Of a stretch of 64,000 nucleotides of DNA, positions 167 through 64,000 are shown in pieces. The notes beneath the pieces were generated by a model. The model worked only from the letters and a program-made list of their open reading frames with translations, was not told where the DNA came from and made no database searches. The stretch's first letter is position 1. Each line of letters starts with the position of its first letter. A program made the translations under genes and the position numbers. The DNA lies in the IMG/VR virus record IMGVR_UViG_3300026518_000008, positions 1 to 64,000 of that record. One strand, 5' to 3'. This DNA is from a virus.

Positions 167-1309
167 TTATATTGTGTATTGTTTTTTTTCTGACAGTCTG
201 ATTCCTCTGTCATCTATTACAGATACGCTTACTGTTACCGTTCCTGTTCCATTGATTAGATCTATGTCGTTTTGTGATACATTTACTGTGAATGCTTTTG
301 TTTCATCTATCAGTACTCTATCATTGATATATACTGTATTCTCTGGACCATTTAGCTTTGTTACCACATATTTACTTACTACTCCATCACTTGTTCCGCT
401 TATTGTCATTCCGCCTGTTGATGGCCATGATGCAGGCCATGATGTTACTGTTAATGTTCCAGCTACAGCATTATGATTTGTGTTTAGGTAGTCTGCTGCT
501 GTTGACCATTTATTTATATATGGTAAATATGCTTCTGTTGTATCAAATGTTGAACTTCCTATCATTGTTCCTAGCATTGATGCAGATGAGTTTAGTATAT
601 GTTGTCTCATATTATCATCAAATGCTAGCTCTTGCCTTTTGGCAACAGCAGTCTGTGCACTTGCCATTCCATCTGAGTCGCTACTATATCCAGCTAGCAT
701 TCCATCTGATTTCTGAGTTACATCTACTAGTCCATTTGCTCGTACTGTTGATGACCACTTCTCATATATATCTGCTTGTGCTTTTTTTACAGCTTCTACT
801 TGTAGTCCATTACCTTTATCTACACTATTCCTATTCAGAACCAGGGTAGTAGTATTAATGTCAGAAACATCGTATCCATATGTTCTGTATAGATCTGCTT
901 GTAGTTTCCATCCTTCTATTGCACTTACAGCTGAATCAGCTTTCATTTTTTCTATAGATGATTGAGTTAGATCTTTCTCATATTCTACTTTTTTTCTTTG
1001 AGCATCTTCTAGCTCAGTGTCAACTCGTAATTTCGTTAGAGCGTACGGAGCGTCCCTGTTTTCTGTTTCTATTTTCATAGCCATATCCATTGCAGTCGTA
1101 GTTATTTGAGTTGTCATTCCTGATAGAGTTTGTGTGAGTATATCTGCTTTTTCTCTCTCGCTGAGAGATCCTGCATTTTCTACGAAATCTGTTATTGTTT
1201 CTTTGGTTCTTATGTATATACTATCTTCAGCAGTAGACGCTTTCATTAGTTCCATATATGTAGACACTATATTTAGCTTACCTATTTTCTCTTGTATTAC
1301 TGTTGCCAT
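167..1309 (-). CDS. Unknown virion-associated protein, 380 aa
   Basis: The first ~180 residues are helical and charged (coiled-coil-like stretch around ELEDAQRKKVEYEKD). The C-terminal ~130 residues are Thr/Ser/Val-rich and look like a beta-sandwich (Ig-like) domain. It sits in the leftward structural operon, with a GCTATAAT-like element about 25 bp upstream of its start. The position after the tail genes suggests a tail or internal virion protein. No named family is recognised. One dispersed motif copy (835-846) lies inside it and is read in a frame giving LVLN. Confidence 0.7.
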   Translation of the reverse strand: MATVIQEKIGKLNIVSTYMELMKASTAEDSIYIRTKETITDFVENAGSLSEREKADILTQTLSGMTTQITTTAMDMAMKIETENRDAPYALTKLRVDTELEDAQRKKVEYEKDLTQSSIEKMKADSAVSAIEGWKLQADLYRTYGYDVSDINTTTLVLNRNSVDKGNGLQVEAVKKAQADIYEKWSSTVRANGLVDVTQKSDGMLAGYSSDSDGMASAQTAVAKRQELAFDDNMRQHILNSSASMLGTMIGSSTFDTTEAYLPYINKWSTAADYLNTNHNAVAGTLTVTSWPASWPSTGGMTISGTSDGVVSKYVVTKLNGPENTVYINDRVLIDETKAFTVNVSQNDIDLINGTGTVTVSVSVIDDRGIRLSEKKQYTI

Positions 1310-1333
1310 GTTATTTCCTTTTCATATTTGATA

Positions 1334-2383: not shown

Positions 2384-3840
2384 GGTATATATATCTCCCC
2401 GTTATCTAGATCTATATACATTCCGTTATTACTTGCTTTTATATATCCACCTTGTATATTAGGAGCGGCATTTGTCCCAGCAGCAGCACTATCTAGTATG
2501 AAAGAGTTAACGCTATCATCCATCTTTATTTGACCGGTTTCCATGTTGAAAAAATTAGCACCAGTTGGATCAGCTATCAGCCCAGTCTCTATTCTTCCTC
2601 CATCTATTACTGTTGTACCTGTTGGATTAGCTAGATCAGCAGACAGTGTCGCATTGTCATACTCAGTTCCTGATAGAGCACCAGACATACCATTAAATGT
2701 TACCTTACCTATGAAATTCACATTTCCATTCACATCTACTGAGAATGGTTTACCGTTGGCACCATCTCCATTTTGGATATAGAAATTATCTGCATATATT
2801 GCGAACACACTTCCTGTTGCTCCATATGAGCTTCCATCATAGAACCCCCATCCAGTTTTGTTTCCATTTGTATCATACAATATCTTGCTTGCTCCACCAG
2901 TCCAGTTTGATACACCAGTTGGAATTGATGGTATTTGATGCCATCCATCTGTTCCAAATGATCCGCCTATGTATTCCCAGTATACACCTGATGTATCTGG
3001 AGCTCCAGAACTTGTTGCTGATTGTTTATTGCTACCTATCTTTGGAACATATGTTATTCCATCATAGTTTCCAGTTCCATTGAACTCATCTAGAGTTACA
3101 ACATGCACAGCTCCACTTGACACACCTTCTTCTGATGCTATTCTTGTACTCAGCTTTCCAACTTTTGCTACATAGTCTCCATAAAATCCTGATGATGCAT
3201 TCATTGTTCCATCTGGATTTATTCCTACTGCTGTATACGCTGTAGATATATGTCCAGCATTCGATGCTACACCAGTAGTAGGGTCAGTTACTATAGATAG
3301 TAGCACAGTTGATGCATATGATGCAGCTATGGCATCTGTTGCTATTGTTTTTGATTGGTTTAGTATTGATGCATTATTTGCATTAAATTCTGAACTTTGA
3401 ATTACTGTATCTACTGTTACTGCTTCATTTTTTGTTACATATGAGTTTTTCACATCCACTATTGCAGCTGCGTTTCCATCCAACTCTGATTTTACAGTAT
3501 CTATTTTTATATTTTGTGAGACAACTTGATTTTCTATTGAGGATATGCTCTCATGCACTCCTTTTTCTATTCCTGCTATCAGTACAGATAGATCATGCAC
3601 TACTTGATTTTGATCAGCGTATCCATTGCTTAGAGCTATATCTATACTCTTTGTTAACCAGTCTGGCATTCCACCATTTGCGTATCCTGCTGCTGCACTA
3701 GTCGTTACTATATAGTCTTGTGATGATACTATTGCTGTTGCTTTGTCAGTTGTTTTTACTGTTGCTGGCACAGCTTCAGATTCTACTCTCACTGGTTCTG
3801 ATGTTACAGATACAGATTCATCTACTACTTTTACAGACAT
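2380..3840 (-). CDS. Tail fibre/tip protein with J-like C-terminal region
   Basis: 486 aa. Residues ~90-150 contain a coiled-coil-like stretch (IDTVKSELDGNAAAI). The region around 340-400 carries the pattern ADNFYIQNGDGANGKPFSVD then NGNVNFIGKVTFNG, which resembles the C-terminal part of siphophage J/central fibre proteins (DUF1983-type). The end is Asn/Asp/Gly-rich. This pattern marks a trimeric tip or fibre. It lies in the leftward tail block and is coupled to the 349-aa gene. Receptor-binding function is inferred. Confidence 0.7.
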   Translation of the reverse strand: MSVKVVDESVSVTSEPVRVESEAVPATVKTTDKATAIVSSQDYIVTTSAAAGYANGGMPDWLTKSIDIALSNGYADQNQVVHDLSVLIAGIEKGVHESISSIENQVVSQNIKIDTVKSELDGNAAAIVDVKNSYVTKNEAVTVDTVIQSSEFNANNASILNQSKTIATDAIAASYASTVLLSIVTDPTTGVASNAGHISTAYTAVGINPDGTMNASSGFYGDYVAKVGKLSTRIASEEGVSSGAVHVVTLDEFNGTGNYDGITYVPKIGSNKQSATSSGAPDTSGVYWEYIGGSFGTDGWHQIPSIPTGVSNWTGGASKILYDTNGNKTGWGFYDGSSYGATGSVFAIYADNFYIQNGDGANGKPFSVDVNGNVNFIGKVTFNGMSGALSGTEYDNATLSADLANPTGTTVIDGGRIETGLIADPTGANFFNMETGQIKMDDSVNSFILDSAAAGTNAAPNIQGGYIKASNNGMYIDLDNGEIYIP

Positions 3841-3842: not shown

Positions 3843-4838
3843 CTATGCACCTGCATATGATACATATATATCTGCTATTCTTGCTACTCTATTGAGTGGA
3901 TTTGGATTTCCATTTACATTAGAGAACTTTATATTTATTATTCCCATGTATTCTGATTTGAGATAGTAGTTATCTACTCCATCTCCTTCTAATACATTGA
4001 GTTTCGCTGTCTCACTTGCATACATTGATACGACTAGATACCCATTTTGATCATACCAGTCTGCAGTTATTTCTGGAGACCCTATAGTATATGCAGTTTG
4101 GACTATGTTTGTAGATTTATCTACTTTTGCCTGACCACCTGCATTTTCAATTATTGTGATTACATCAGAACCAGATGGATGCGTCTTACCTACATATTCA
4201 GGTAATACAGTCATTGCAGTATTCAGTGAATCCATTATCTTACCAGCACTTGTCAGAGTATCATTTGTGTTGCTTAATCCACCAGATATTGTCAGAGTTC
4301 TAGTACCTACAGTCACATCATAGTCAGTTAGTGAAGTACCAGCAGTTATTGCGTCTGCTCCAGATTGCGTCAGCACTATATAGTTTCCATTTGTTGTATA
4401 GTATCCATCTTGATTTGATACTGTTGCTGCTGTAATTGATGAGCTATGTATTACTACCGTTGCTACAGTATCTCCAGCATTTACTGCACCAGATTGAGTA
4501 TTTACTGAGAATATATCTGTCTCATTATCTACTTCATACACCTCACCTTTTACAGTTATTGAGTATTTCTCGTATCCAACTCTTGATATTTGCAGAGTCG
4601 TGTCTTCTGGTACGGCAGCAGTATTACCTACTATTACAGCTTTTCTTTCTACTAGCATTTGAGCTAGTTCTATTCCATTTACATCTACAGCTGGTGTCCC
4701 ATCTGCTTTGTTTCGTATCTTGAATTCGCTTAGTAGATTATCTAGTTCAGATACATTTTGCGGCAGGAAACTATCTTCTTCCATTATTTGTACTGTGAAT
4801 GTATAGTCAGTGCCTTGTGGTATTATGAATCTGCTCAT
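3843..4838 (-). CDS. Unknown structural protein, beta-rich, 331 aa
   Basis: Thr/Val/Ser-rich with a short N-terminal segment (MSRFIIPQGTDYTFTVQI) like baseplate or upper-fibre proteins that start with a small beta domain. It is separated by 2 bp from the downstream fibre gene, so it is probably in one operon. No specific family is recognised. A structural role follows from its neighbours. Confidence 0.6.
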   Translation of the reverse strand: MSRFIIPQGTDYTFTVQIMEEDSFLPQNVSELDNLLSEFKIRNKADGTPAVDVNGIELAQMLVERKAVIVGNTAAVPEDTTLQISRVGYEKYSITVKGEVYEVDNETDIFSVNTQSGAVNAGDTVATVVIHSSSITAATVSNQDGYYTTNGNYIVLTQSGADAITAGTSLTDYDVTVGTRTLTISGGLSNTNDTLTSAGKIMDSLNTAMTVLPEYVGKTHPSGSDVITIIENAGGQAKVDKSTNIVQTAYTIGSPEITADWYDQNGYLVVSMYASETAKLNVLEGDGVDNYYLKSEYMGIINIKFSNVNGNPNPLNRVARIADIYVSYAGA

Positions 4839-4875: not shown

Positions 4876-4914
4876 ACTATTTACCCTCGTATATATTCAC
4901 ATCAGAACCAGGGG
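4876..4914 (+). repeat. Extended dispersed element (ACTATTTACC box plus core)
   Basis: ACTATTTACC at 4876-4885 and the core TCAGAACCAGGGG at 4902-4914, starts 26 bp apart, in the short gap between two leftward genes. It is one of six such two-box copies. Confidence 0.75.
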
Positions 4915-6918: not shown

Positions 6919-8184
6919 TCATAGACTCGCCTCGAGATTTTTATACCATTCGTTGAATGATTCATCATCATCATCGAGATAGTCAACTACAGTTTTATTC
7001 CCTGCAGATTTACTAGGTATTGCAGCATTTTTACGCCCATTGGCATCTGCTTCTACCTGTTTCTGCTTTTCTTGTTGTGCTTTCACTTCGGCTATTCTAA
7101 CAGCATTTGCTTCAGCTTGTCTTTTAGCTTCTGCGTTTGCACCATCTAGTCTTGCCTGTTCAGTAGCATCGTTTTGAACTTTAGCTATATTTTGGTTTTG
7201 AATTGTATGAGCTCGTCTCTGTGCAGCTTGTGCATAGTATTCGATATCAGACAGCCTATTACCATCGTACAGCTTTAGTTTTGTTGCTTCTGCACTCAGC
7301 ACATCGAAATCTCCAGACTTCACATCTATGTGTAGCTTTTTGATTAGTGATGGGTTATCTAGGAATGCATCTCGTGATGATTGATCCCATCTGTTACTCA
7401 GCACGTCTTGTGTTATTGCGTATTCAGGATCCCTTCCTATTTCATTTACTATGTCATTGATTTCGAGTTCCACTTCAGATTGTCCATACTGTTGTGGCTG
7501 ATACACCTGATCTTCACTATCAACATCCAGCTCCATAGGATCTATGTTTACTTTTTGCATGAGCTTGTTGATAGCTCCTTTGTCACCCTTCATTACATCT
7601 ATCATTAACTCAATATCAGAATGTGATATTTTATTATCTTCTAGTGCACTTATCGTGGTTCTCCATGGCTTGATCTCTTGCATCTTTTGAGTATAATTCA
7701 TTGACTGACCAAATACTTGTCCGAATCGTTCTTTTATCTCCGCTTCAGTAAATTCGAATTCTTGTCCATTTGCATTATACTTATATGTTTGTGGCTTCGT
7801 GTCCTCTGGTTCTGATTTGTCTACATCGTTAGCTTCTGTCTTATCTGCATCAGCTTCAGCAGGATCTGTTCCATTGTCTTCGTTACCATCAGTATTGGAG
7901 TCTGTAGTCGATTGTTCCAATTCTTTTGAATGCTCATCATCTGCAACATCATTATCTTGCGATTTGTCACTATTTACATCGTCTTCTGCCGGTTCAGAAC
8001 CAGTGATATTTGTAGTTTCATTTTCATCAGAGTTTGCATCATTTTGGTCTCCGATTATATCATCTCCTATATCTCCTTGTTCTTGTTCAGCTCGAGCAGA
8101 AGCTAGTGCTTCTTCGAACTGTTCATCTGACATATCATAAAGGGCTTCTTCTTCATCAGTAAGTGGGTTTACGCTATCATACAT
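6919..8184 (-). CDS. Probable scaffolding protein, 421 aa
   Basis: The N-terminal ~150 residues are extremely acidic (Asp/Glu/Asn runs such as DKSEPEDTK). The middle is helical, and residues ~320-390 are Ala/Gln/Lys-rich coiled coil. An acidic, helical protein between portal and major capsid genes is the usual position and make-up of a scaffold that is removed during maturation. Two dispersed motif copies (7803-7815 reverse, 7994-8005 forward) fall in its low-complexity acidic part. Confidence 0.65.
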   Translation of the reverse strand: MYDSVNPLTDEEEALYDMSDEQFEEALASARAEQEQGDIGDDIIGDQNDANSDENETTNITGSEPAEDDVNSDKSQDNDVADDEHSKELEQSTTDSNTDGNEDNGTDPAEADADKTEANDVDKSEPEDTKPQTYKYNANGQEFEFTEAEIKERFGQVFGQSMNYTQKMQEIKPWRTTISALEDNKISHSDIELMIDVMKGDKGAINKLMQKVNIDPMELDVDSEDQVYQPQQYGQSEVELEINDIVNEIGRDPEYAITQDVLSNRWDQSSRDAFLDNPSLIKKLHIDVKSGDFDVLSAEATKLKLYDGNRLSDIEYYAQAAQRRAHTIQNQNIAKVQNDATEQARLDGANAEAKRQAEANAVRIAEVKAQQEKQKQVEADANGRKNAAIPSKSAGNKTVVDYLDDDDESFNEWYKNLEASL

Positions 8185-9212: not shown

Positions 9213-11228
9213 TCATTGCATAACTCCTAGTTGCTTATCTCCAGCTTGTTGTTGCATCTTCATCTGCTCCATGTTTGCTTGGTACTTCATATACTCTTTT
9301 TGCATATCTTGCTTGTGCTTGATTTCCATATCTTTACGCTTGACTTTTTCATCTATTTGTTCATCTGTTTTTATATAGTTTAGATCTTGCATGTCTGATG
9401 CTGAGTGTAGCTGTCTTGCTTTTGCTTCATCTACAGCAGCTTTTGCCATCTTTGCTCTTTTGTCAGCTTCATTCTCATGACCTGTTGCATATATAGAGAA
9501 TATCTCTGCTTCTAGTTTCTTATTCATCAATTCAGCTTTTTGTACTTCTATTTGTTTCATTTTTTCTTGCATTGGGTCTGGATTTTGCATCTGCTGTCTT
9601 ACTTTTTTTGCTTTGTCTCTTAACCTTTTTGCAGCTTTTGGCATTTTTGTTAGTTCAGCCCAGTCGGCCATTAGATCGAATTTCATATCTGGATCCATAC
9701 TTTGAGCTGTAGTTTGCATCATAAATGATAATTCTTGCGATTTTTGTGCATTGTCTTCAGCTGTGCTAACTTCTATATCTAGATCTACTCTACCAGTTAG
9801 ATCAGCTTTAGTTATTGGTACAAATTTTGCATTTGTTATATCCATTATTTCTTTATCATTCATGAACTCTGCACTGTATGATAACCACTTTCTCATCATT
9901 GGTTTTATTAGATTTTCAGCTATATTTCTTACTCTATACATTCTTCTTACAGCTGTTGCACTGAGTGCTCCTCTTACACCAGTAGCACTACCACTTATTG
10001 ATCCTCCAGATATTCCACCGCTAAATGATTTTACTCCTGTTTGAGACTCTATTTCATTACTCTGTACTGATAACATATCGAACGCAGAACTTGGTATTGA
10101 ATTATAGCTTCCATACCAGAAGTCATTTGGAGTTCCATTGAACTCGAAGTTCTCATCATTTAGGAATTTTCTTCTATTAGCTACATCTAGTGCACCTTTA
10201 CGAACTCCAGTTTGTCCATTATTAGATTGAGCCATATTATCTATGATTCCACGAGTTACTGCTGTTTTTATCTTTTGGTTATCCGCTATTAGTTCTGCAT
10301 CTGATTCTCCAGCTAGCTGGAATGGTACAGAGTTAAATGGAACTACCATGAATGGTACTTTGTTGTCTGGATATGGATTATCTTGAAGTCTAATTATAGT
10401 ATTGCCTATCCATGCACATACTACTGGTTTTGCTATTCCGCTTCCTTCTATATCATAGTTACCCCAATATTCATATATCATTAGTTTCTTCCTAGGATTA
10501 TCTTGAAATTGGAATCTAGTTTCATCTTCTGGATCATAGTAGATATCATTTACTGAATCTCCAGATGATTCTTTCATTACCTTATCTATGTTTTTATATC
10601 TTTTATCTTGTTTTAGAGTTGTATAGTCAGTTTCATATCTATGGATTACGAATTGACAGTTTTCCATGTTATCCATACATGTTGGATCTATATACACATC
10701 TTCGTTTCTACATACTACAGCAGTTGGTCTATTTATTATTATCTCTGTTTCTTCTGCAGGGACCATAACTATTGTTTCTACACCGTTTACTACTTCTATT
10801 GTTTCTGTTTCTCGTTGTATTTTCTTATCTTTATACTCCCATCCAGTTTGTACAACTAGAGTACCTTCTTGCGATAGCACTTTTAGAGCTTTTGACATGA
10901 ATGAGAATCTAGGAAAATCTCTACAGAATTGGTAGTTTAATAGTAGTTCACTTTGTTTAGCTTTGTCTACATCTTCGTACGTGATAGGAGATACTTTTAC
11001 TATTTCTCGTGTTGATACGAATGGATCTAGTATTGATGGATGTAGCCATTCATCCTGCTTTTTTATATCTCGTGATACTATTTGAGATTTGCCTTTTACC
11101 TCATTTCCATATTTTTCACCATTATATCCATGTTTGTATTCTGCTATTTTTGTATCTTGATCCGCTCTTGCTGCCATAGCATGCTTTAGATCTGCTTGCA
11201 TACCTTTTAATATCTTATTCTTGTCCAT
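9213..11228 (-). CDS. Portal protein (head-tail connector)
   Basis: 671 aa. It forms the dodecameric DNA entry/exit ring of the capsid. The N-terminal core (QDEWLHPSILDPFVSTREIV, then repeated aromatic/charged segments) resembles large portals of N4- and P22-like podophages. The C-terminal 150 residues are a long charged coiled coil (KQIEVQKAELMNKKLEAE) ending in a Met/Gln tail. Size and the order portal-scaffold-capsid support the call. A TGGTATAAT element lies about 35 bp upstream of the start. Confidence 0.8.
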   Translation of the reverse strand: MDKNKILKGMQADLKHAMAARADQDTKIAEYKHGYNGEKYGNEVKGKSQIVSRDIKKQDEWLHPSILDPFVSTREIVKVSPITYEDVDKAKQSELLLNYQFCRDFPRFSFMSKALKVLSQEGTLVVQTGWEYKDKKIQRETETIEVVNGVETIVMVPAEETEIIINRPTAVVCRNEDVYIDPTCMDNMENCQFVIHRYETDYTTLKQDKRYKNIDKVMKESSGDSVNDIYYDPEDETRFQFQDNPRKKLMIYEYWGNYDIEGSGIAKPVVCAWIGNTIIRLQDNPYPDNKVPFMVVPFNSVPFQLAGESDAELIADNQKIKTAVTRGIIDNMAQSNNGQTGVRKGALDVANRRKFLNDENFEFNGTPNDFWYGSYNSIPSSAFDMLSVQSNEIESQTGVKSFSGGISGGSISGSATGVRGALSATAVRRMYRVRNIAENLIKPMMRKWLSYSAEFMNDKEIMDITNAKFVPITKADLTGRVDLDIEVSTAEDNAQKSQELSFMMQTTAQSMDPDMKFDLMADWAELTKMPKAAKRLRDKAKKVRQQMQNPDPMQEKMKQIEVQKAELMNKKLEAEIFSIYATGHENEADKRAKMAKAAVDEAKARQLHSASDMQDLNYIKTDEQIDEKVKRKDMEIKHKQDMQKEYMKYQANMEQMKMQQQAGDKQLGVMQ

Positions 11229-11298: not shown

Positions 11299-11337
11299 AC
11301 TATTTACTCTGTATATTGGACTACTTCAGAACCAGAG
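11299..11337 (+). repeat. Extended dispersed element (two-box copy)
   Basis: ACTATTTACT at 11299-11308 and TCAGAACCAGAG at 11326-11337, starts 27 bp apart, in the gap between the portal and muramidase genes. Confidence 0.7.
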
Positions 11338-12658: not shown

Positions 12659-13052
12659 CTATATATCCTTTACATTTTTCTATATTTATATCATTATCTT
12701 TTGTTTCATGTTTTACATTTTTTAAAGTATCATACCATTTTTTATATTTATCTCCATCTGGTTTTGATTTCCATATTTTTACTTCTTTCTCCTTCAGAAC
12801 CAGGGAGGCTGCTTGTTTTTCCATCATTATATTTTGTCTATCTATTGCATTAGTTAGAGTTGATTTATCATTTCTCAGAGATCCAATAGAGATGTCTTTC
12901 TCAGATATTTTTTTAGCTAGTTTACCTATAGTATCATCTCTATATTCTATGTCTTCATGCAGTCCACTTATTTTTATTTGGTACCAAATAGCAAGAGCTA
13001 CCATACCAATGCCTAACCCAGCACTTATATATTTCCATATACCGCCAAACAT
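12615..13052 (-). CDS. Inner-membrane spanin (Rz-like)
   Basis: 145 aa. One N-terminal membrane segment (AGLGIGMVALAIWY) is followed by a periplasmic coiled coil (KKISEKDISIGSLRNDKSTL), the type II membrane topology of i-spanins. The partner lipoprotein gene overlaps its 3' end. A motif copy (12794-12806) is read as ASLVLKE. Confidence 0.8.
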   Translation of the reverse strand: MFGGIWKYISAGLGIGMVALAIWYQIKISGLHEDIEYRDDTIGKLAKKISEKDISIGSLRNDKSTLTNAIDRQNIMMEKQAASLVLKEKEVKIWKSKPDGDKYKKWYDTLKNVKHETKDNDINIEKCKGYIDVENATSGFDLDTL

Positions 13053-26939: not shown

Positions 26940-26942
26940 ATA

Positions 26943-47875: not shown

Positions 47876-48304
47876 ATGAGAGTTATTATTAACAACGAAC
47901 ATTCAGATAGCGAGATACTACCACCAGAACTGGAGAGTATCATAGGATTTCAATTCGGTGAGGAAGTAAATATCCCAGTTGCTACATATAACGCTATTTT
48001 CAATCTTACATTTACGAATTCAGCTGGAATGCAACAGAACAGATTTAAAATCATAGTTATATCTATGGATGAATCACCAGAGGAAGTTGAGCAGAAGGCA
48101 GAGATAGATGCTGTAACTGCAGCTCAAGAGGAAGAGTTTGAACAGATTGTATTAACTCTTGACAAATATGAGGCACTTCTATCAGGAGTTGCTACAGCTC
48201 ATGCAAAACATGGTATCAGTACAGATTCTGCACCAAATTCTGCTATTGCATTATTTCTTCATCTAAATTCACCAGAGTTTACTACCTCAGAACCAGAGGA
48301 ATAG
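47876..48304 (+). CDS. Unknown acidic protein, 142 aa
   Basis: Start chosen at 47876 (AAAGGAAC before it). Beta-rich first half, helical acidic second half, ending TTSEPEE on a perfect motif copy (48287-48299). Unknown. Confidence 0.55.
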   Translation: MRVIINNEHSDSEILPPELESIIGFQFGEEVNIPVATYNAIFNLTFTNSAGMQQNRFKIIVISMDESPEEVEQKAEIDAVTAAQEEEFEQIVLTLDKYEALLSGVATAHAKHGISTDSAPNSAIALFLHLNSPEFTTSEPEE

Positions 48305-48526: not shown

Positions 48527-48795
48527 CACACTCCTGGTTCTGATGGGTTGCAGTAGAAGGCTGTAATTAAATAGCGTCGCCGACTTAATCGGCGGAGCAC
48601 CTTGCCCACACTATGTGAGAGATGAGTTATAAGACAGGAATAAAACCGCCTGCAGCTATAAGGTTCTTAGAAGTTAGCTTATTAAAGTGTAACCGGTCCA
48701 CTTGTCTCTCATCGCCTGATTCATTTTGCAAAACGCATCACAGTCCCGTCCTATATGGACTCACATTATATACATACATCTTGAAAGGATATAAT
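48527..48795. other. Noncoding leader region with GC-rich hairpin
   Basis: CGCCGA-CTTAA-TCGGCG hairpin near 48576-48592, unusually GC-rich for this genome. A motif copy at 48531-48543. The rest is the probable leader of a highly expressed gene. Possible regulatory RNA. No coding frame. Confidence 0.45.
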
Positions 48796-51629: not shown

Positions 51630-52913
51630 ATGGCTTATCATATAAATACATCTAGACACAACGCTACTCCAACTCAGAAGAATGCATCAGTTTGCTCTGT
51701 ACCAAAGTATGACTTTGTAGGAAAAATTCACACCACATCTACTGGTGATCTTTTTGGAGTGCTTTTACTACAGCAGGAAACTCTTGACGAGATATTCGAG
51801 CAGAGCGGACCACTTGCTGTATCGAATGAATTTCAGTTCCACTATACATCATTAGTTGGGAAACTTCAGAACCAGGGGCAGGAGCTCTATATTAGTATTC
51901 CACTTGTATGTTACAACTACAAACAGACGGTATCTGGAGCTCACATTGGATTCAACCTTGAGGACACTGAGACTATGTCAGATGATACTCTTGAGATCGC
52001 ACAGATGAAGGCTGCAGAATTTCTTAGTACAGATACTCGTACTCAGATAGAGTCTATCTTTGGAGAACTTGATTGGCATGTTGCTACACTACAGACTATG
52101 CACAGACATCCAGGAGGTTCATCTCAGGGATTCTCAAGTACAGATCTTATGACAGATCCAGACAGAGCTGGAATTGTATTTCCACTTAATGAGTCTATTG
52201 AGAAATCTATCAGTTTTTCATCTATTATGTATGTGCAGAATGGATCGTGTAGACTTGCTCATACTGAGGTTCGTACTGCACTTGGTTCAGCTTCAGAGAA
52301 GAGTGGAATACTATACAGCAATGGTAGATCTATTACTATTGTTGCTGGATATGATTCTACGCCTACAGAGCTTGATACTATGTTTGGCATACCTGGATAC
52401 ACATCTACAGATACTGTATATTTTGATGACATGCCTACCACTACAGATATACCTCAGCAACTTACATCTATAATGAGAGAGTCCTCTTTTAGGCCAGAGA
52501 TATTTATTGATGAAAATCATTTATCCACTGAGACTACTTACTATGGGAAGCAGAGAAAACCTTTGATTAAACAATCAGAATTTACAAAATCCACAGATAG
52601 CTTTCAAAATACTAACCAGCTGAGCTTATTTAGTAGAGGACTTGAAGATGACATCGTATTTGATCAAGATGAATTATATGAAGATTATATAGATCCATTA
52701 GATCAGGATTCATCTGGAATGTATACACAAAATCCATTTGAGCTTGATCATATGGACAGAGAGATACTTACAGATGCACTTAGAGATGAACTTGCAGATA
52801 TTACATATTGCGGAACCAAGAGTCATGTTTTCACAGAACGAGAGATTGCTCTCAAGCCTGAACATGAGATCTGGAGATTATCCAGAACTCACAAATTACT
52901 AAAACCACTATAG
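51630..52913 (+). CDS. JAB/MPN (JAMM) metalloprotease, 427 aa
   Basis: Removes or matures ubiquitin-like tags in known systems. The zinc motif appears as HRHP (158-161) and S-S-T-D (169-172) in MHRHPGGSSQGFSSTD, with a candidate catalytic Glu upstream in NEFQFHYTS (E67). Spacing between HP and S is 7, one longer than the usual 6. After ~250 the chain is low-complexity and acidic, ending in a helical tail. In one operon with the E1-like gene. The family also includes phage tail protein K, so a virion role is an alternative, but here the neighbours are not tail genes. Confidence 0.75.
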   Translation: MAYHINTSRHNATPTQKNASVCSVPKYDFVGKIHTTSTGDLFGVLLLQQETLDEIFEQSGPLAVSNEFQFHYTSLVGKLQNQGQELYISIPLVCYNYKQTVSGAHIGFNLEDTETMSDDTLEIAQMKAAEFLSTDTRTQIESIFGELDWHVATLQTMHRHPGGSSQGFSSTDLMTDPDRAGIVFPLNESIEKSISFSSIMYVQNGSCRLAHTEVRTALGSASEKSGILYSNGRSITIVAGYDSTPTELDTMFGIPGYTSTDTVYFDDMPTTTDIPQQLTSIMRESSFRPEIFIDENHLSTETTYYGKQRKPLIKQSEFTKSTDSFQNTNQLSLFSRGLEDDIVFDQDELYEDYIDPLDQDSSGMYTQNPFELDHMDREILTDALRDELADITYCGTKSHVFTEREIALKPEHEIWRLSRTHKLLKPL

Positions 52914-52923
52914 GACATATATT

Positions 52924-53814
52924 ATGGCTACAACATTTCAAACATTGTATGGTTCAGATGATTTGTTTTTTACACCAGAACACCAATTTGGTATACGACG
53001 TTCAGAATTAGCTGATGCAACATCTAATTCTGATACAACTACAGAAAATACATCTATTCCTGACCCAATTGATACTAACCAATCAGAACCAGGTGAGATG
53101 ATTCCGTATGACACTTCACGAGATATTACATCATTGATTACAGAATTTCATGATCATCATGACAGGCTAGAAGGTGATGCATATGTATTTGATGCAGAGA
53201 TGCTATCAAATACTAGACTCCAGAATTTCCTTATGACTATTGATCATAGGGCTAGACCAGAACAGAGAAAGATTACTATGCCAGATATGAGCAGAATTAT
53301 TGAGCATGGGCTATCTATGATTGTAGATGGATATGATCAACTTGAGTATAGAGACTGTTCTAAAGTATTTCATTTTAATAACGGAGATGTACTGCTCAGA
53401 GTATCTGGATTCATCAATAGAGCTACTGAAACTATTGAAATTATTCGTTATACGAAGAAATTCAAAGTAGACCGCATGATTGATGATGTCCAGGCAAGAC
53501 GAGTATTTGATTATTCGTTATATGCATCAGCATTTCTACTAGCATCAAGATATCCAGCTATTGGAACTATGATTAAAACAATTCATGAGCATTTTGGTGA
53601 ATTTCATATCACTGAGCATTTCCCGTATATATCCAGCAATAATACTATTGAGTCAATACTTGAGGCATATATATCTGATATCAATTCTGGAGAATTGCCA
53701 CCAGAGTGCGAGGACAAATGGACCACTCGGGCTGGAGTTAATTCTCGTTGTGAGAAATATTGTTCAGTTAAAGATATTTGTCCATTTTACACTCCTACTC
53801 ACGCTGGTTCTTAG
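52924..53814 (+). CDS. Degenerate RecB/Cas4-like protein with C-terminal cysteine cluster, 296 aa
   Basis: The central part follows the PD-(D/E)XK plan (LLRVSGFINRATETIEIIRY, then YSLYASAFLLASR) but the catalytic Asp-Asp-x-Lys positions read Asn/Arg/Thr, so nuclease activity is doubtful. The end LPPECEDKW...CEKYCSVKDICPF carries the four-cysteine (iron-sulphur-type) pattern of Cas4/AddB-like nucleases. Same tail as the 244-aa protein at 60357. Last gene of the E1/JAB operon. Confidence 0.65.
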   Translation: MATTFQTLYGSDDLFFTPEHQFGIRRSELADATSNSDTTTENTSIPDPIDTNQSEPGEMIPYDTSRDITSLITEFHDHHDRLEGDAYVFDAEMLSNTRLQNFLMTIDHRARPEQRKITMPDMSRIIEHGLSMIVDGYDQLEYRDCSKVFHFNNGDVLLRVSGFINRATETIEIIRYTKKFKVDRMIDDVQARRVFDYSLYASAFLLASRYPAIGTMIKTIHEHFGEFHITEHFPYISSNNTIESILEAYISDINSGELPPECEDKWTTRAGVNSRCEKYCSVKDICPFYTPTHAGS

Positions 53815-54588
53815 ATAGTACAGCTGGGTGTCGTTTCAGTCGACTTCTTAAGTAGAAAGTGTTCTCCCCAGCACATGTATTAATTCATTTGCGAGATAAT
53901 ATTCGTATCCTGCTTAGTGTGCGTGGTAGATACACAGAGCATTTTTCCATTTGGCAACTATTTACCATTTGGAAGAACACTACAGAACCAGAGTGATGAT
54001 CATCCCACAGAGAACTCATAGGAGTTTTGTTTGGGTCGATTCATATCAGTCCCTCTAACCTTAGACAGGAAGAGAAAAGAATATGCGTGTTTAGTATCAG
54101 AATTTATGCGTTAAGAAAACTGAGATGTTAATTTGTGATATTGAGTTGTAACTGCAAAACAAAAATATTAATTGGGAATATTTATATTACTAGAACGAGT
54201 CAGTGTGGCATTGCGTCTACACATACAATTCTAGTCTCCAGAAAGATGCCCAGCTGGAGTAGCGATATGAGTCTATTTATATATACTTAGTATTCGCTAT
54301 ATATTTTTATATATGTCTCAGCTAAACCCACACCTTATTTAAACATAGGATGGATAGCTTACTGGCAGTGCAAGTCTGTCCTGAGTACACCAAAGTCTTA
54401 ATATATAATCTATTCTTGCAGAATACAGATACAACTAAACTGATTATATTTGTGGTAGTAGTATGCCGTGAGAATATAAAATATTGCCAATATTAATACT
54501 GCTATTAAGTTTTTAGTGTAACAACACGCCTATAACTATAGAACATGAATCATTAGCTTACACATTGGTAAATCGGATCGGTATTTGT
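53815..54588. other. 774-bp noncoding region
   Basis: No coding frame. Contains an extended two-box motif copy (53957-53993), a terminator-like hairpin AACTC-ATAG-GAGTT-TTGTTT (54017-54037), a CTCCAG/CTGGAG hairpin near 54237-54260, and a T-arm-like segment near 54364-54392 ending in CACCA. May encode small RNAs related to the following tRNA-like cluster. Confidence 0.45.
53957..53993 (+). repeat. Extended dispersed element (two-box copy)
   Basis: ACTATTTACC at 53957-53966 and ACAGAACCAGAG at 53982-53993, starts 25 bp apart, in the noncoding region before the tRNA-like cluster. GTGATGAT follows the core, as in other full copies. Confidence 0.7.
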
Positions 54589-55111: not shown

Positions 55112-56404
55112 ATGAGACAAGATATAGAGGAACGCATTAATGCTACTAAAGTTCCATACAAAATATATGCAGAGTTTGTCGAAGACAAAGCTGCAGAACA
55201 ATTTGCAAATTGCCTAGAGCAGGAGTCTGTAGTGCAAGGAGCTCTCATGCCAGACACACATGCCGGTTACGTTGCACCTATCGGTTCTGTACTAGCTACA
55301 AATGGTACTATTTTCCCATCTTTCGTTGGATACGACATCGGATGCGGCATGAGCTCTATCCGTACTAATATCCAATACAAATCAGTCTCAACAGAACAAC
55401 TAGAGGCTATTAAAAATCAGATTCTTAGAGATATTCCTATTGGTTTTGAGAGACATTCTAAACCTAAGACACATATCGTAGAAAGATTTCCTATGACACC
55501 TTTTGCAAAGGACGTGTTACGCACCACTGGTTCTTATCAGTTAGGCACACTTGGCGGAGGGAATCATTTCCTTGAAATAGGATATGACAATGACGAATAT
55601 TTAAATATAGTTGTTCACTCAGGTTCGCGTGGTGTTGGACATAAAATTGCCACTAAATATATGAAAGAGGCTGCAATTCAATCAGTAGACGAATCTAGAT
55701 ATAGAAAAGAATTTGATGAGAAAAATAAAGCTTGGCTAAATAAAATTTTAAACAGCAAATCATCTCCAGCTAATGACAAATTACAGGATAGATACGACAA
55801 AGCTAAAACTGAATTTACTTATCGTCGCACCAGAGCTAGAGTATCGAATATTGAGGATGCGTATCCATTAGATAACACATCAGAACCAGGGATGGGATAC
55901 ATGCAGGATATGAACATGGCATTGGAATTTGCTTTAGAGAATAGAGAGCTAATGATAGGTAGATCAGTAGCTGCTATTGCTAAAGTTCTTGGCCAGGATA
56001 TTTCTACTTCTCGCTTTATCAATCGAAATCATAACCATGCAGAACTAGTAGATGGTAGATGGATACATCGCAAGGGAGCCACTCAGGCTGCAGATGGTAT
56101 GATTGGAGTTATACCAGGAAACATGGTAGATGGCTCGTTCATAGTTAGATGTAGAGGTAGCTCAGATTCTATGAATTCATCATCTCATGGAGCAGGTAGA
56201 GTTTTATCTAGACGAAAAGCCAAGGATACTCTTGACCTAGAGGAGTTTATTTCTAGCACAGCTCACCTAATAGCGAACCATTCTGATTCAAACCTAGACG
56301 AATCTCCACTTGCATACAAAAATATTTTTGATGTAATGGAACAGCAGTCAGACTTGGTTAAGACACTAGACAGAATTGTACCAATTATAAACATTAAAGG
56401 GTGA
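55112..56404 (+). CDS. rtcB: RtcB-type RNA ligase
   Basis: 430 aa. Joins 2',3'-cyclic-phosphate or 3'-phosphate RNA ends to 5'-OH ends using GTP and manganese. Family motifs visible: LMPDTHAGYVAPIG (~45-58), FVGYDIGCGMSS (~72-83), LGTLGGGNHFLE (~145-156), VVHSGSRGVGHK (~168-179), and the C-terminal guanylylated-His region SSSHGAGRVLSR (~365-376). Full length. Directly downstream of the scrambled tRNA halves, which are obvious candidate substrates. Repair of tRNA cut by host anticodon nucleases is the alternative. A motif copy is at 55880-55892. Confidence 0.9.
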   Translation: MRQDIEERINATKVPYKIYAEFVEDKAAEQFANCLEQESVVQGALMPDTHAGYVAPIGSVLATNGTIFPSFVGYDIGCGMSSIRTNIQYKSVSTEQLEAIKNQILRDIPIGFERHSKPKTHIVERFPMTPFAKDVLRTTGSYQLGTLGGGNHFLEIGYDNDEYLNIVVHSGSRGVGHKIATKYMKEAAIQSVDESRYRKEFDEKNKAWLNKILNSKSSPANDKLQDRYDKAKTEFTYRRTRARVSNIEDAYPLDNTSEPGMGYMQDMNMALEFALENRELMIGRSVAAIAKVLGQDISTSRFINRNHNHAELVDGRWIHRKGATQAADGMIGVIPGNMVDGSFIVRCRGSSDSMNSSSHGAGRVLSRRKAKDTLDLEEFISSTAHLIANHSDSNLDESPLAYKNIFDVMEQQSDLVKTLDRIVPIINIKG

Positions 56405-59097: not shown

Positions 59098-59453
59098 TTA
59101 TATACAGACACATTCGTAGAAAGAGTTGTGATTTTTTCGACACAAAAGAGTATACGATTGCAGCAGAACTTAGAGACGGAGCATACTATATCGGCATTGC
59201 TACATGTTCACCACGAGATACATATTGCAAAAAAACTGGACGAGAGATTGCTAGATCTAGACTTAAGTCATCAGAGCAGAAGATCACACTTGATGACCTC
59301 AAATTGGAGGTAGATATTTCAGAGTGCAATATATTTACACATGAGTATACCAGCAATTTCATTGGATCACTATCTATAGAGGATTTCTCTATACACCATG
59401 TCTTATCACTTGCTCATGATACATTTATTGATAACAACAGTAGTGTATTATGA
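59094..59453 (+). CDS. Unknown small protein, 119 aa
   Basis: Beta-rich first half (AAELRDGAYYIGIATCSPRD), with basic and acidic patches. Coupled to both neighbours by ATGA overlaps, in the rII/nuclease operon. Unknown. Confidence 0.55.
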   Translation: MIIYRHIRRKSCDFFDTKEYTIAAELRDGAYYIGIATCSPRDTYCKKTGREIARSRLKSSEQKITLDDLKLEVDISECNIFTHEYTSNFIGSLSIEDFSIHHVLSLAHDTFIDNNSSVL

Positions 59454-60346
59454 AAAAACCTATAAACAATTATGAGACAGGAGATGGTATCATTCCAGAT
59501 GGAATGATAAAACTAAGTCCTTCAAGATTTGAGAGATTCTTCTCGAAACCACATGAGTGGTTCAGAGAATTGATCATGCAGGAGGGTGGGTTCGATGGTA
59601 ATTCTGGGTCCAACATTGGGAATATTATCCATGCTACTGCAGAGGCAGAGGCTACAGGTCAGACACTTACTGATGACGAGATTCAGGAGTTCATAGACAG
59701 CTTGCCAGAGTTAGTTGACGAGAAACATCCATGGATGAATCTTGAGCATCATGTCATTAGAGCAGCTTATCCAGACATGCAGGAGCTTATTCGCGAGTTT
59801 GTAAGAGAGAATCTACCTACATCTACAGAGGGATATATCTGGAGACAGATTACTCCACGAATTGTAGTTGCTGGTTCTTACGATGCATACAGAGTGAATC
59901 CTATGACAGGAAATTATATTGTGACCGACTACAAGACTACTGGAGAGAAATTACCTCCGAAGTCAATGAGTTACTCTCACAAATTGCAGCTTTATATGTA
60001 TGCTTGGATGCTTCGCAAACAGGGCATTATGGTAGACGCTATCGAAATAGTATATATTACTAGATTCCATTCAGGGGCACCAGCTAAAATTTCAGAGAAG
60101 ACAGGGAAACTTGGAAAGCCTGGAAGAGATTATCCAGCTACGCTTACACCGATTATGTACGAATTTACAGACAGAGATATGACTTTTATATCTGACTTGA
60201 TAAAACTTGGAGCTGAGTCACTTGAGTATTTCATTGATCATCCAGAGGCAGCATACATTATTTTTCGAGACTACCGTCTCAAAGGAACAGACTTCTCCAG
60301 ATACTTGACAGATATAGTGGACGGCGGAGTTTACGACGATTTTTAG
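59450..60346 (+). CDS. RecB/Cas4-like PD-(D/E)XK exonuclease
   Basis: 298 aa. Opens with the RecB-type LSPSRFERFFSKPHEWF. Catalytic plan intact: VAGSYDAYRV (Asp), NYIVTDYKTTG (Asp-x-Lys), SHKLQLYMYAWML (Gln), as in RecB/Cas4 nucleases. It lacks the terminal cysteine cluster, which is instead found in the next gene's product. Likely a replication or recombination exonuclease. Confidence 0.8.
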   Translation: MKKPINNYETGDGIIPDGMIKLSPSRFERFFSKPHEWFRELIMQEGGFDGNSGSNIGNIIHATAEAEATGQTLTDDEIQEFIDSLPELVDEKHPWMNLEHHVIRAAYPDMQELIREFVRENLPTSTEGYIWRQITPRIVVAGSYDAYRVNPMTGNYIVTDYKTTGEKLPPKSMSYSHKLQLYMYAWMLRKQGIMVDAIEIVYITRFHSGAPAKISEKTGKLGKPGRDYPATLTPIMYEFTDRDMTFISDLIKLGAESLEYFIDHPEAAYIIFRDYRLKGTDFSRYLTDIVDGGVYDDF

Positions 60347-60356: not shown

Positions 60357-61091
60357 ATGTCAGACACATCAGATATATATAAGAGTAGCTTTGAAGGACT
60401 ATTTCATTTACCACAGGCACCAAATGAAAAGATTCTTCTAGCTTCTGAACTAGGATCAGAGCTTCTTGTCTCATATTTACGCAGAACCAGCGGAGGGGAA
60501 TATTTACAACATTTCTCAGACATGTTTACACAAGTTTTGAGAAATGCTACTGGATATAATTGCTCATGGTTTTCAACTAAGCTAGAGAATGGTTGGGATA
60601 TTCAGTCAGAGATCAGTTACCTAAATCACGATGAAAAAGTTGCATGCCTTTCAATTGTACTATCCACGAATCGTATACTTGAGCTTCAGAAGGCAGATAC
60701 ATCTCATCCCCTGGTTCTGGAGTTATCAGTAATGAGATACATAGCTGACAAATATAAGACTACAAATTCATCAGTGTACAAATTCATCATCATAGCTTTT
60801 GATAGACTATATACTGATTACAAATCTATGCCTACTCAGGCTATCACATATATAGAGCCAGAGTTACTTAGTATTGCAGAGACAGAGAATAGACTCATTG
60901 AGTATACTGACCAACTTCAACACTACATTGATACATGCACACTTCCACCTCGTTGCACAGATATCAAATGGCATAGACGTCGAGGGAAATCCATCAATAT
61001 GACTTGTCAGAGATGTCCAGTCAGGAATTCATGTCCGCATACGAATTCATTTACACACACCAATGCTACATTGGATAATATTATTTTTTAG
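60357..61091 (+). CDS. Cysteine-cluster RecB/Cas4-like partner protein, 244 aa
   Basis: C-terminal LPPRCTDIKW...TCQRCPVRNSCPH matches the four-cysteine end of Cas4/AddB-like nucleases and of the 296-aa E1/JAB operon protein. The nuclease core motifs are not recognisable. Follows the active nuclease by 10 bp, so the two may form a complex in which domains of one enzyme are split. Two near-motif copies (60481, 60707). Confidence 0.6.
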   Translation: MSDTSDIYKSSFEGLFHLPQAPNEKILLASELGSELLVSYLRRTSGGEYLQHFSDMFTQVLRNATGYNCSWFSTKLENGWDIQSEISYLNHDEKVACLSIVLSTNRILELQKADTSHPLVLELSVMRYIADKYKTTNSSVYKFIIIAFDRLYTDYKSMPTQAITYIEPELLSIAETENRLIEYTDQLQHYIDTCTLPPRCTDIKWHRRRGKSINMTCQRCPVRNSCPHTNSFTHTNATLDNIIF

Positions 61092-61102: not shown

Positions 61103-61510
61103 ATGGACCAATTACCAGAACATGTACTAAAGAACAAAGAGAGACAGAAATTTGACTCAGTAAAACACAAGATTCGCATTATGCAGGCTTTCGTTGATGG
61201 CAGGCATATTATTTGCAAATCTAGAGAGACTCTTGAGTCATCTCCAGACAGAACACCATCATGGAATTGGGAGACGCATTCATATATGATTGCACACGAC
61301 AACTACTCTCCGAGAGGCACTATTTACCCTACCGATTATGATACTCCAGAACCAGTGGTGATGGATCTTGACCAGAGATATGAGCTTCCAGATGAGTTAC
61401 CTGTTGTTTCTTCATCTAAGACATTGGATGAGAGATTTGCAGAGATTGATAGAGAGTACAATTCTAGACAGATTGGATTCTGGTCTACAGTTAGATCATT
61501 TTTTTCATAG
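61103..61510 (+). CDS. Unknown protein, 135 aa
   Basis: Basic N-terminus (KNKERQKFDSVKHKIRIMQA), acidic C-terminal part and an aromatic end (DRQIGFWSTVRSFFS type). An extended two-box motif copy (61319-61358) encodes TIYPTDYDTPEPVV. Unknown. Confidence 0.55.
   Translation: MDQLPEHVLKNKERQKFDSVKHKIRIMQAFVDGRHIICKSRETLESSPDRTPSWNWETHSYMIAHDNYSPRGTIYPTDYDTPEPVVMDLDQRYELPDELPVVSSSKTLDERFAEIDREYNSRQIGFWSTVRSFFS
61319..61358 (+). repeat. Extended dispersed element (two-box copy, intragenic)
   Basis: ACTATTTACC at 61319-61328 and CCAGAACCAGTGG at 61346-61358, starts 27 bp apart, followed by TGATGG. Same layout as the noncoding copies although it lies in coding sequence. Confidence 0.7.
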
Positions 61511-61519
61511 GAGACTCAT

Positions 61520-64000
61520 ATGAGCACTTTTACTTTACGTCCTCACCAGCAACATGCTGTAGATGAAACAATTGCAGAACTTGCATTTGGATCATCTGAG
61601 GTAGTTATTGATGCACCGACATCTTTTGGGAAAGAGCAACCATATACAGAGCCTGTTCTTACTCCAGATGGATTTATCCCGATGGGTCAGCTTTCAGTTG
61701 GCAGCAGGGTTATTGGTTCAGATGGGCAGCCAATCCTTATCACTCATATACATGAGCAGGGATGGAAAGATGTGTACGAGATATCATTTCGAGACGGTAG
61801 CTCAGTACGTTGTGGACTTGATCATTTATGGAGAATATCTAAATATGAGAAGAGACAGCAGGATGGCATTTCAGAGTCATATTTGAAGTATGACACGAAA
61901 TCTATTTCAGAATTGTTGAATTATTCAGAGAATTCCCAGCGTAGATTTTTTGTAGATTTACCTTCTCCTGTTCTCACTGGGCACAGTGATTTACCTATTG
62001 ACCCATATGCACTTGGATTATTGCTTGGAGATGGATCTTTTACATGTAGCACTATTGGTTTCTCAAATAGAGATGAGCATATCATAGATGCACTTTTTGA
62101 TGCTATTCCTTCCAGAGACAAACTTGGATATATAGGTTTTAGAGACGATGGATCTAAGGTTGATATGAATATTATCAGCAGAACATCTGGAAAGACCAGG
62201 AGCGATACTTCACTTATTCTTGAGTCACTAGAATTGCTTGGAAAGAAGTCTACAGAGAAATTTATTCCAAATCAGTATATGACCTCTTCATATATAGATC
62301 GTATGAAATTACTACAGGGTCTTATTGATACAGATGGCCACTGGCAGACAGGCACTCTGAATGAATATTCATCTTCGTCTAGAGAGCTTGCATATGGAGT
62401 AGTTGATCTAGCTAGAAGTCTTGGCATATATGTTACTATATCAGACAGAATCCCGGTCTTTAAAGATACGAATGGACAGAAAAAGAATGGTTCTAGAAAT
62501 TATAGAGTATTTTTAAATTTTGCTCGAACCAAGAAATCTATTATATCTATTAGATCGTTAGGATACAGAGAGAATAGTAGATGTATTACAGTGGATAGCA
62601 CAGATCACCTATATATCACTAAAGATTTCACACTTACCCACAACTCGTCAGTAATTGCTGGACTTTGTCGAGATATGGATGCAGAGGATATAGTTATCCT
62701 TGTCAATATTACAGAGCTTATAGATCAGATAGCTGAGCACTTAGATTATTTAGGACTGAGTTATTCTATCTTGAAGGCTGGACGAGAGTCAGAGTTTGTA
62801 CACGGATCACGTATACATATTGCTATGTCTCAAACATTGTTTTCACGCATTGACAAGATTGACTTATCTTGTGATGTCATCATACAGGATGAGGTTCACA
62901 AGGAGTTTTCTACGAATCGCACGCAGACTATTCTTGACAAATTACAGCCTGATTCTCGTATTGGATTATCAGCTACACCATACGATGCCAAGAATTTCAA
63001 ACTTGGAGATTCTACTATTATACAGACATTATCTGTTCAACAGTTGCAGGATGATGGATATTTAACACCAGTAAGATATTTTATTCCTAAATGGTCAGAG
63101 CAGGTTGATTATTCGTCAGTTAAATCCACAGGAGCAGACTATACTATATCAAAACTAGATGAGAAAATTGCTACTCATCAGCATATAGAGCAGTCATTAC
63201 GTTCTATGAACTTACTCGATGCAAAATCGAAGAAAACTATTGTCTTCTGTTCATCTATAGAACAGTGTGAGTTAGTTACAGCAGCCATGAGAGCAGATGG
63301 ATATGCAGTTGAGCAGGTTCACTCTAAACAGAGCAAACAGGACAATGAGAATATCATTTCAGCTTTCAGAGATTGCACATTATATACACCTGGAGTTAAG
63401 GCCAGACAAAATGATGCAGAGCGAACACTATTTGAACAGGATAACATTCACTCTGGTTCTGAGGTGTCAGCACTAGTATCAGTGTCAAAACTTTCTACAG
63501 GTTTCGATGTCAAGGATATTCAGCTTGGAGTATTGATGAGACCTACTAAGGTATTATCTCTATTTATCCAGCAGGTAGGTAGGCTAATTCGTACAGCACC
63601 AGGAAAAAAATATGCAGAATTATTAGATCTTGCTCAATGTACATCCAGATTTGGATTTCACACGACACAGTTTACTCCGCTGGAGCATTCTGGAAACATA
63701 GATCTTGATAGAACACGCAAATTATTATCTGACTCAGAGATGGAACTCAAACATCTTGCTCAGACTCTACCAGATGATGGAGATGAGTTACAGGAATTTG
63801 ATTTTGAGAAATACGCACTCAGTATTCAGAAACTAGCTGCCAAAGAGAAATTGCTTCTTGAGAAAAAGAACGATATAACTACTTGGACTATGAAAGAGTT
63901 AGCCTCAACTTATGACTACACTGATAATATACAAACAGTAATTGCTATTGGTGCAGAGATTTATACACGCAAGTTTGGATCTCCTATATCTAAGAAGGGA
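61520..64000 (+). CDS. SF2 helicase interrupted by an intein (partial)
   Basis: At least 827 aa, open at the window end. N-extein to Walker A (VIDAPTSFGK, residues 29-38). The intein occupies 39-375. The C-extein resumes at SSVIAGL. Helicase motifs follow: IIQDEVHKEF (DEVH box), RIGLSATPYDA (motif III), IVFCSSIEQCELV (IV), STGFDVKDIQ (V) and IQQVGRLIRTAPG (VI, Q-GR-R). Type UvsW/restriction-like SF2. Role in replication, recombination or defence cannot be told. The last visible residues are RKFGSPISKKG. Confidence 0.85.
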   Translation, partial: MSTFTLRPHQQHAVDETIAELAFGSSEVVIDAPTSFGKEQPYTEPVLTPDGFIPMGQLSVGSRVIGSDGQPILITHIHEQGWKDVYEISFRDGSSVRCGLDHLWRISKYEKRQQDGISESYLKYDTKSISELLNYSENSQRRFFVDLPSPVLTGHSDLPIDPYALGLLLGDGSFTCSTIGFSNRDEHIIDALFDAIPSRDKLGYIGFRDDGSKVDMNIISRTSGKTRSDTSLILESLELLGKKSTEKFIPNQYMTSSYIDRMKLLQGLIDTDGHWQTGTLNEYSSSSRELAYGVVDLARSLGIYVTISDRIPVFKDTNGQKKNGSRNYRVFLNFARTKKSIISIRSLGYRENSRCITVDSTDHLYITKDFTLTHNSSVIAGLCRDMDAEDIVILVNITELIDQIAEHLDYLGLSYSILKAGRESEFVHGSRIHIAMSQTLFSRIDKIDLSCDVIIQDEVHKEFSTNRTQTILDKLQPDSRIGLSATPYDAKNFKLGDSTIIQTLSVQQLQDDGYLTPVRYFIPKWSEQVDYSSVKSTGADYTISKLDEKIATHQHIEQSLRSMNLLDAKSKKTIVFCSSIEQCELVTAAMRADGYAVEQVHSKQSKQDNENIISAFRDCTLYTPGVKARQNDAERTLFEQDNIHSGSEVSALVSVSKLSTGFDVKDIQLGVLMRPTKVLSLFIQQVGRLIRTAPGKKYAELLDLAQCTSRFGFHTTQFTPLEHSGNIDLDRTRKLLSDSEMELKHLAQTLPDDGDELQEFDFEKYALSIQKLAAKEKLLLEKKNDITTWTMKELASTYDYTDNIQTVIAIGAEIYTRKFGSPISKKG
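61634..62644 (+). other. Intein with LAGLIDADG homing endonuclease
   Basis: 337 aa inserted after the Walker A lysine. The N-terminal splicing block reads VLTPDGFIPMGQLSVGSRV and VRCGLDHLW. Two dodecapeptide motifs are ALGLLLGDGSF and LLQGLIDTDGH. The C-terminal block is HLYITKDFTLTHN before extein Ser. The first intein residue is Glu in the frame as read (GK|EQPYTEP), rather than Cys or Ser, so splicing would have to follow a class that tolerates this. Confidence 0.85.

Follow-up and report, generated by a model that had tools for sequence, protein, structure and literature searches.

Overview of the phage and of its dispersed word

The window analyzed here comprises bases 1-64,000 of a 93,163-bp IMG/VR virus record (IMGVR_UViG_3300026518_000008), and the phage it comes from is called G. 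A short oriented DNA word with the 8-mer core AGAACCAG is scattered over both of its strands and is the subject of this study. On sequence grounds, G is assigned to the N4-like phages (Schitoviridae), as it carries a large virion RNA polymerase (vRNAP), an N4-type portal (58% identical to that of Alteromonas phage AD45-P1 and a strong match to a portal PHROG), a gp68-type terminase and a member of the gp43 primase family; the N4-related proteins in G are the terminase, gp69, the vRNAP and the gp43-family primase. In G, we are highly confident that the motif is a real, selected and strand-specific DNA signal, common to many N4-like phages. It is unusually long and clean in this phage, and most likely a replication signal.

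The original prediction, made from the letters of the window, described a genome-wide motif far above chance, and the counts bear this out. The exact 10-mer TCAGAACCAG occurs 29 times in the window (19 on the plus and 10 on the minus strand) versus 0.13 expected under a first-order Markov model, and the core, these 29 included, 52 times (31 plus, 21 minus) versus 1.71. Over the whole record the core reaches 76 copies (45 plus, 31 minus) versus 2.54, so the excess holds in the full-length count as well. At equal threshold, a position weight matrix recovers 105 sites in G and 8 in the reversed sequence, with a consensus of about yTAyyTC-AGAACCAG-RGR. The site thus described holds ~20 bits over some 20 bp, weak preferences extending to ~7 bases upstream and 10 downstream; the RGG tail is a preference only, with 9 copies of TCAGAACCAGRGG in the window. 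A C stands directly before the core at 42 of 45 plus-strand sites versus 20 of 31 minus-strand sites (P 0.002), and the strands of G thus differ in site quality as well as in number. The cores in the window are given below by coordinates and strand.

837..844, +, core AGAACCAG (as are all that follow)
4167..4174, +, core
4904..4911, +, core, identical in relative L011
7996..8003, +, core, not kept in L011
8951..8958, +, core
11328..11335, +, core
12796..12803, +, core
14399..14406, +, core, within the 12.8-19.4 kb gap (see below)
19368..19375, +, core
21212..21219, +, core
24780..24787, +, core
25890..25897, +, core
28333..28340, +, core
30164..30171, +, core
31430..31437, +, core
34547..34554, +, core
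34957..34964, +, core
35949..35956, +, core
36159..36166, +, core
38756..38763, +, core
39841..39848, +, core
41315..41322, +, core
46071..46078, +, core
46485..46492, +, core
48289..48296, +, core
51868..51875, +, core
53085..53092, +, core
53984..53991, +, core
55882..55889, +, core
60483..60490, +, core
61348..61355, +, core
3792..3799, -, core
7806..7813, -, core, identical in relative L011
12586..12593, -, core
16724..16731, -, core, within the 12.8-19.4 kb gap (see below)
24869..24876, -, core
26747..26754, -, core
29458..29465, -, core
30065..30072, -, core
31869..31876, -, core
36199..36206, -, core
40425..40432, -, core
42186..42193, -, core
44094..44101, -, core
46208..46215, -, core
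48534..48541, -, core
49654..49661, -, core
53804..53811, -, core
55527..55534, -, core
59871..59878, -, core
60711..60718, -, core
63453..63460, -, core

Selection on the DNA word and conservation

When synonymous codons are shuffled inside genes, so that proteins and codon usage stay as they are, 21.8 core copies are expected versus the 76 observed. Thus, amino acids carry part of the excess and most of it they do not, and the large excess that survives the shuffle argues for selection on the DNA word itself, as the prediction had proposed. Predicted open reading frames (ORFs) contain 65 of the 76 copies, where 70.9 would be expected (P 0.014 for a count this low); 30 are in sense and 35 in antisense. 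The claim that copies are read in different frames stands insofar as all six occur; their use is uneven, with a single phase accounting for 21 of the 30 sense copies and another single phase for 26 of the 35 antisense ones. A protein segment as the cause was rejected, given the use of six frames and the failure of the codon shuffle to explain the excess, yet two frame classes hold 47 of the 65 copies. A hairpin or RNA element was likewise rejected, the flanks having no consistent self-complementarity (stem 0 to 6) and the orientation being independent of the gene strand.

Two further details of the prediction fared less well. Many copies were said to lie near gene ends, and only 7 of 76 are within 20 nt of a predicted stop versus 3.8 expected (P=0.08), which does not support a gene-end signal. 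A gap at 12.8-19.4 kb, reported as the largest, exists for the exact 10-mer, where it comes second to 55.9-63.5 kb, and fails for the core, with copies at 14399 and 16724 and a largest core gap in the window of 3,989 bp. A search of the record for a reverse transcriptase domain (PF00078) came out negative, and by that test the remark that the fibre region in this gap contains a diversity-generating retroelement is without support.

G was compared by alignment with L011 and L210, two fragments of a close relative that come from sample 3300003177. Of the 11 G sites in the aligned DNA, 9 match at every one of the 8 bases, on a background in which 14.1% of aligned 8-mers are identical (2,349/16,602; P about 1e-6 for the excess at sites). 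Viewed from the relative, 15 sites in aligned DNA correspond to 9 that are intact in G, 4 that differ by substitution only and 2 opposite a gap, which does not support the short mobile insert that had been suggested. In a separate global alignment with L011 alone, 4 of 7 listed G sites are kept and 2 of the remaining 3 lie opposite gaps. A search of IMG/VR with CCTCAGAACCAGAGG returned 65 stretches with one match apiece, and these were not taken as relatives. The reading of the motif as a genome-wide binding or recognition signal is upheld; its per-strand spacing, its polarity and its spread through N4-like phages go beyond the prediction.

Spacing of the sites on each strand

The gaps between cores on the plus strand of G are markedly even, with a coefficient of variation of 0.56 versus 0.97 expected (0 of 20,000 simulations as low), and those on the minus strand similarly so (0.53, P 1.5e-4). 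Pairs of sites no more than 700 bp apart are depleted on the same strand (5 versus 21.7 expected) and not across strands (26 versus 20.8), and sites on opposite strands approach each other to 40 bp; each strand is thus apparently read separately. Such spacing seems to be the trace expected from a process reading one strand at a time. The orientation of the sites also alternates strongly (55 runs versus 37.7 expected). As a separate rule this was rejected, as 51.2 runs remain when the sites of one strand are shifted along the other (P 0.16), and the alternation follows from the regularity within each strand. With looser site definitions the spacing effect becomes weaker.

This pattern bears on the possibility that the sites bind a double-stranded DNA-binding protein, ParB-like or histone-like, that organizes, condenses or packages the phage DNA. 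A long site of ~20 bits over ~20 bp is typical of such proteins, and AD45 encodes a protein with a ParB N-terminal domain. The spacing expected from them is, however, orientation-blind, whereas in G only same-strand neighbors are depleted, and the consistent polarity described below would not be expected either, so that we regard this explanation as improbable. More generally, lagging-strand priming fits the spacing on each strand better than do a host Chi or uptake signal, packaging or DNA organization, which are among the candidates offered in the original prediction.

We know of no report of nicks in N4 virion DNA. In the T5, phiKMV-like and tf phages, the virion DNA carries site-specific single-strand nicks, likewise placed at short dispersed motifs with a consensus that varies between relatives, but these interruptions are confined to one strand (PMC3517423), whereas G has 45 sites on the plus and 31 on the minus strand, and nicking is thus a very unlikely function.

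Beyond G, even spacing is modest. When the sites of N4-like phages were compared with simulated positions, 7 of 30 strand tests gave P <0.05 versus 0 of 6 in controls. When family words were compared with control words of like abundance in 16 genomes including G (VBP32, pYD6A, G003 and unclear contigs were left out), 29 of 36 strand tests, which are not wholly independent and from which 2 of 38 with <10 control words had been dropped, fell below the middle (Fisher P 8e-7). Oriented sites, read strand by strand and at an Okazaki-like spacing on both strands, are therefore found in G and, more weakly, in relatives; the N4 word recurs every ~360-450 bp per strand.

Drifted words in N4-like phages and their polarity

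The codon-shuffle control was extended to another 23 N4-like phages, taken as genomes, contigs or large portions of these (for many, the first 50 kb only), in batches of 12, six and five genomes together with the loci L210, L211 and L212, and to three outside controls. In N4 itself, GAACCA is the top 6-mer (220 versus 98 expected), and GACCCA and GAGCCA are also raised. Pae575 has AAGCCAA (67 versus 13) and BUCT194 GAACCAA (75 versus 24); SP058, Pastis, K479 and G003 have like words with a weaker excess, and that of XC38 is weak. DSS3P2, LUZ7 and JWAlpha, examined later, conform. A second form is raised in AD45, G012 and G013 as ANCTAG[T/G]G, and in PT11V19 and R22Y as ANCTACTG. These two families are referred to as the CCA (ANCCA) and CTA (ANCTA) forms. 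No clear form of either kind was detected under the codon control in the marine contigs G002, G006, G009, G011 and G014, the last of which shows TA[CT]CTGCGG-like words, and for a further marine contig, G004, the signal is seen under the Markov model only. The remote primase relatives L211 and L212 have no clear motif. In the outside controls, T7, phiEco32 and 50 kb of E. coli K-12, the excess of GAACCA is not significant (z 1.8, 1.7 and -0.9). Position weight matrix searches in AD45, G003, G014 and G001 slid into codon repeats at some settings. A second over-represented word, ~CTTAG / GCTAAG, was observed in BUCT194, XC38, VBP32, pYD6A, G002 and R22Y.

The word also has a polarity. In 14 of 15 genomes, XC38 being the exception, the primase-coding strand carries more copies of it than the other strand; taken singly, 10 of the 15 are not significant. 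G013 and G003, in which no primase was located, were left out. The same proportion is obtained when only genes on the primase strand (14 of 15, R22Y being a tie) or only genes on the opposite strand (14 of 15, not XC38) are considered. If the word is that of the primer strand, replication forks would be predicted to move mainly from the late-gene end to the early-gene end.

The primase as candidate reader in a mosaic genome

The gp43-family primase was matched in 18 of 22 records, the other four being contigs of 20-70 kb. Primase loci of at least 12 kb were collected from IMG/VR, which left out 30 of 80 N4-type loci and 16 of 40 AD45-type loci (40 of the 41 available), and were scored with word lists fixed beforehand. 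The best CCA-form score exceeded the best CTA-form score at 50 of 50 N4-type loci and at 0 of 24 AD45-type loci, the CTA form prevailing at 24 of 24. As judged from these loci, the primase appears to be the protein that changes with the form of the motif.

G separates the primase from much of the remaining genome. Judged by portal and terminase, it falls among marine phages, and of the 15 G proteins that have homologues in the N4 and marine groups alike, 13 give their higher score with the marine one. The two that do not are the primase (148 bits with the N4 group versus 58 with the marine group) and a 43-residue match of the ORF at 42478-42798 (51.6 versus 47.4 bits). G is thus a mosaic of AD45-like structural genes, a primase closer to N4 and an N4-type motif. 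The genes concerned are the following.

9213..11228, -, portal, nested among AD45-like marine phages, marker of the structural module
22938..24830, -, terminase large subunit, marine type
59450..60346, +, PD-(D/E)XK exonuclease, marine type
record 64,372-66,510, just beyond the window, gp43-family primase

The exonuclease and a UvrD-type helicase are also encoded by G, and bear on a Chi-like site that controls recombination or an exonuclease, read by a translocating helicase-nuclease (the phage UvrD-type and PD-(D/E)XK proteins, or host RecBCD). Chi sites are oriented, dispersed and read strand by strand, as the sites here appear to be. The blastp homologues of the G exonuclease and UvrD helicase, however, lie in the marine group only, in which clear motifs are of the CTA form except in G003, whereas the motif of G is of the CCA form, so these genes do not follow the motif type. 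E. coli Chi is GCTGGTGG, from which the N4 word differs, the 50 kb of E. coli have no GAACCA excess, and a site every ~360-450 bp per strand in N4 seems dense for Chi. We therefore consider a Chi-like function unlikely. Of the other replication and recombination proteins of G, Sak4 has its best match in the PHROG of AD45, and the single-stranded DNA-binding protein has a weak match to a PHROG other than that of N4.

Regarding the primase itself, a first tree separates all the CCA phages from the rest (100/100, with a long-branch warning), which in effect puts G outside the AD45-type clade. The G protein has a PriCT-1 domain (PF08708, 25.8 bits for a cut-off of 21.1), and D525, D527 and H552 are invariant in primase alignment A2; these residues may correspond to the hhDhD and H motifs of archaeo-eukaryotic primases (AEP). 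The predicted fold is poor (mean pLDDT 54.7), with residues 279-366 resembling parts of MCM AAA+ proteins (highest Z 11.1, across 81 residues, which is a middling value); among the matches listed in fold searches with this poor model there was no primase fold, and the sole match of the primase profile to PDB sequences (E 0.15) is not a primase. The G protein is probably a primase-helicase.

Several observations weigh against the primase as reader and against priming as function. Primase type is confounded with phage lineage, a link that only G and its relative L210 break, and a larger tree resolves three separate clades (G-like, N4-type and AD45-type) on long branches, so that topology alone cannot join G to N4 and their closeness rests on similarity. 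The loci compared share ancestry, the words had been defined in part on the source records of at least two of the 24 (L301, L306), and a family word is among the top three at only 26 of 50 N4-type and 12 of 24 AD45-type loci. Moreover, ANCCA and ANCTA were recognized as families by eye, after the first genomes had been viewed. VBP32, with no primase annotated in the stretch analyzed, and pYD6A have no ANCCA excess under the codon control, and the primase of pYD6A is N4-type yet the phage lacks the signal. XC38 is an exception to the polarity, and spacing is uneven in PT11V19, XC38 and G003. Known primases mostly read 3-5 bases, and the ~20 bits over ~20 bp of the G site are more than a primase should need. 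Finally, the primase is not the only widespread core protein, as the vRNAP is one too (13 of 22 records, several partial).

For that reason, we also weighed a signal for transcription or genome entry, with the vRNAP or a different core protein of these phages as its reader. The sites are independent of gene direction, and the vRNAP ORFs of G favor the marine group (293 versus 196 and 167 versus 72 bits), which leaves such a reader highly improbable. The vRNAP of G is split over two adjacent ORFs (record 77595-89097), and the matches in AD45 are likewise two ORFs.

Proposed role in lagging-strand priming

We consider it an even bet that the motif marks the sites at which the phage primase, of the N4 gp43 family, starts lagging-strand primers. 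The excess of the word, its conservation, its spacing on each strand, its polarity and its drift between relatives are observed; both the reader and the function are inferred. The strand recognized by the primase would be the one with CTGGTTCT (TGGNTC in N4), and the primer would begin with or contain AGAACCAG (GANCCA in N4). Selection would maintain one site per 2-3 kb on each strand separately; a close second copy on the same strand would be redundant and lost, and copies on the opposite strand would be irrelevant. For a primase that scans the template of the lagging strand, a site would be required every few kb on each strand, and a near duplicate would bring no benefit. It is possible, at rather less than even chances, that an evolving strand-specific code sets lagging-strand starts, in which a drifting primase drags dozens to hundreds of sites with it and one branch has arrived at a site of ~20 bp.

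The closest likeness is with the priming sites of T7, which are given as 5'-(G/T)2GTC-3' with flank preferences and consolidated sites ~1-6 kb apart, that is, as a short oriented template word (TGGTC form in T7, TGGNTC in N4) for which flanks matter (PMC12839067). Unlike these, the motif described here is strongly over-represented, longer (~13-20 bp in G) and drifting between relatives. The gp43-family enzyme is presumably not of the T7 gp4 type, having a PriCT-1 domain and AEP-like residues instead, and because the enzymes differ, the likeness of TGGNTC and TGGTC is possibly due to chance. The stoperators of mycobacteriophage L5 are also asymmetric phage sites, of 13 bp and present in dozens, but they follow the direction of transcription and are mostly intergenic, neither of which applies to the motif in G.

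Despite the standing of N4 as a model phage, no paper describing this signal appeared among the matches listed in the open-access literature searched; one that contains both 'phage N4' and GAACCA concerns lysis, to judge from its title. If the sites are indeed priming sites, Okazaki maps would be predictable from sequence, the co-evolution of one protein with dozens to hundreds of sites would become observable, and the direction of replication of uncultured N4-like phages could be inferred.

Other features of the record

Neither a PolA-family DNA polymerase, within the 93 kb of this N4-like phage, nor, by blastp, a homologue of the gp15/gp16 RNA polymerase II was found in G. Four adjoining ORFs at 49360-53814 have no Pfam match. 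Two helicase ORFs, of the ResIII/Helicase_C type (record 61520-64300, starting inside the window) and of the UvrD type (record 69604-72153), each contain a LAGLIDADG stretch, and by sequence these stretches are probably inteins. An RtcB-type RNA ligase gene (PF01139) lies at 55112-56404, and genes for tRNA-Gln(ttg) and tRNA-Ser(gct) are adjacent at 26865-27027.

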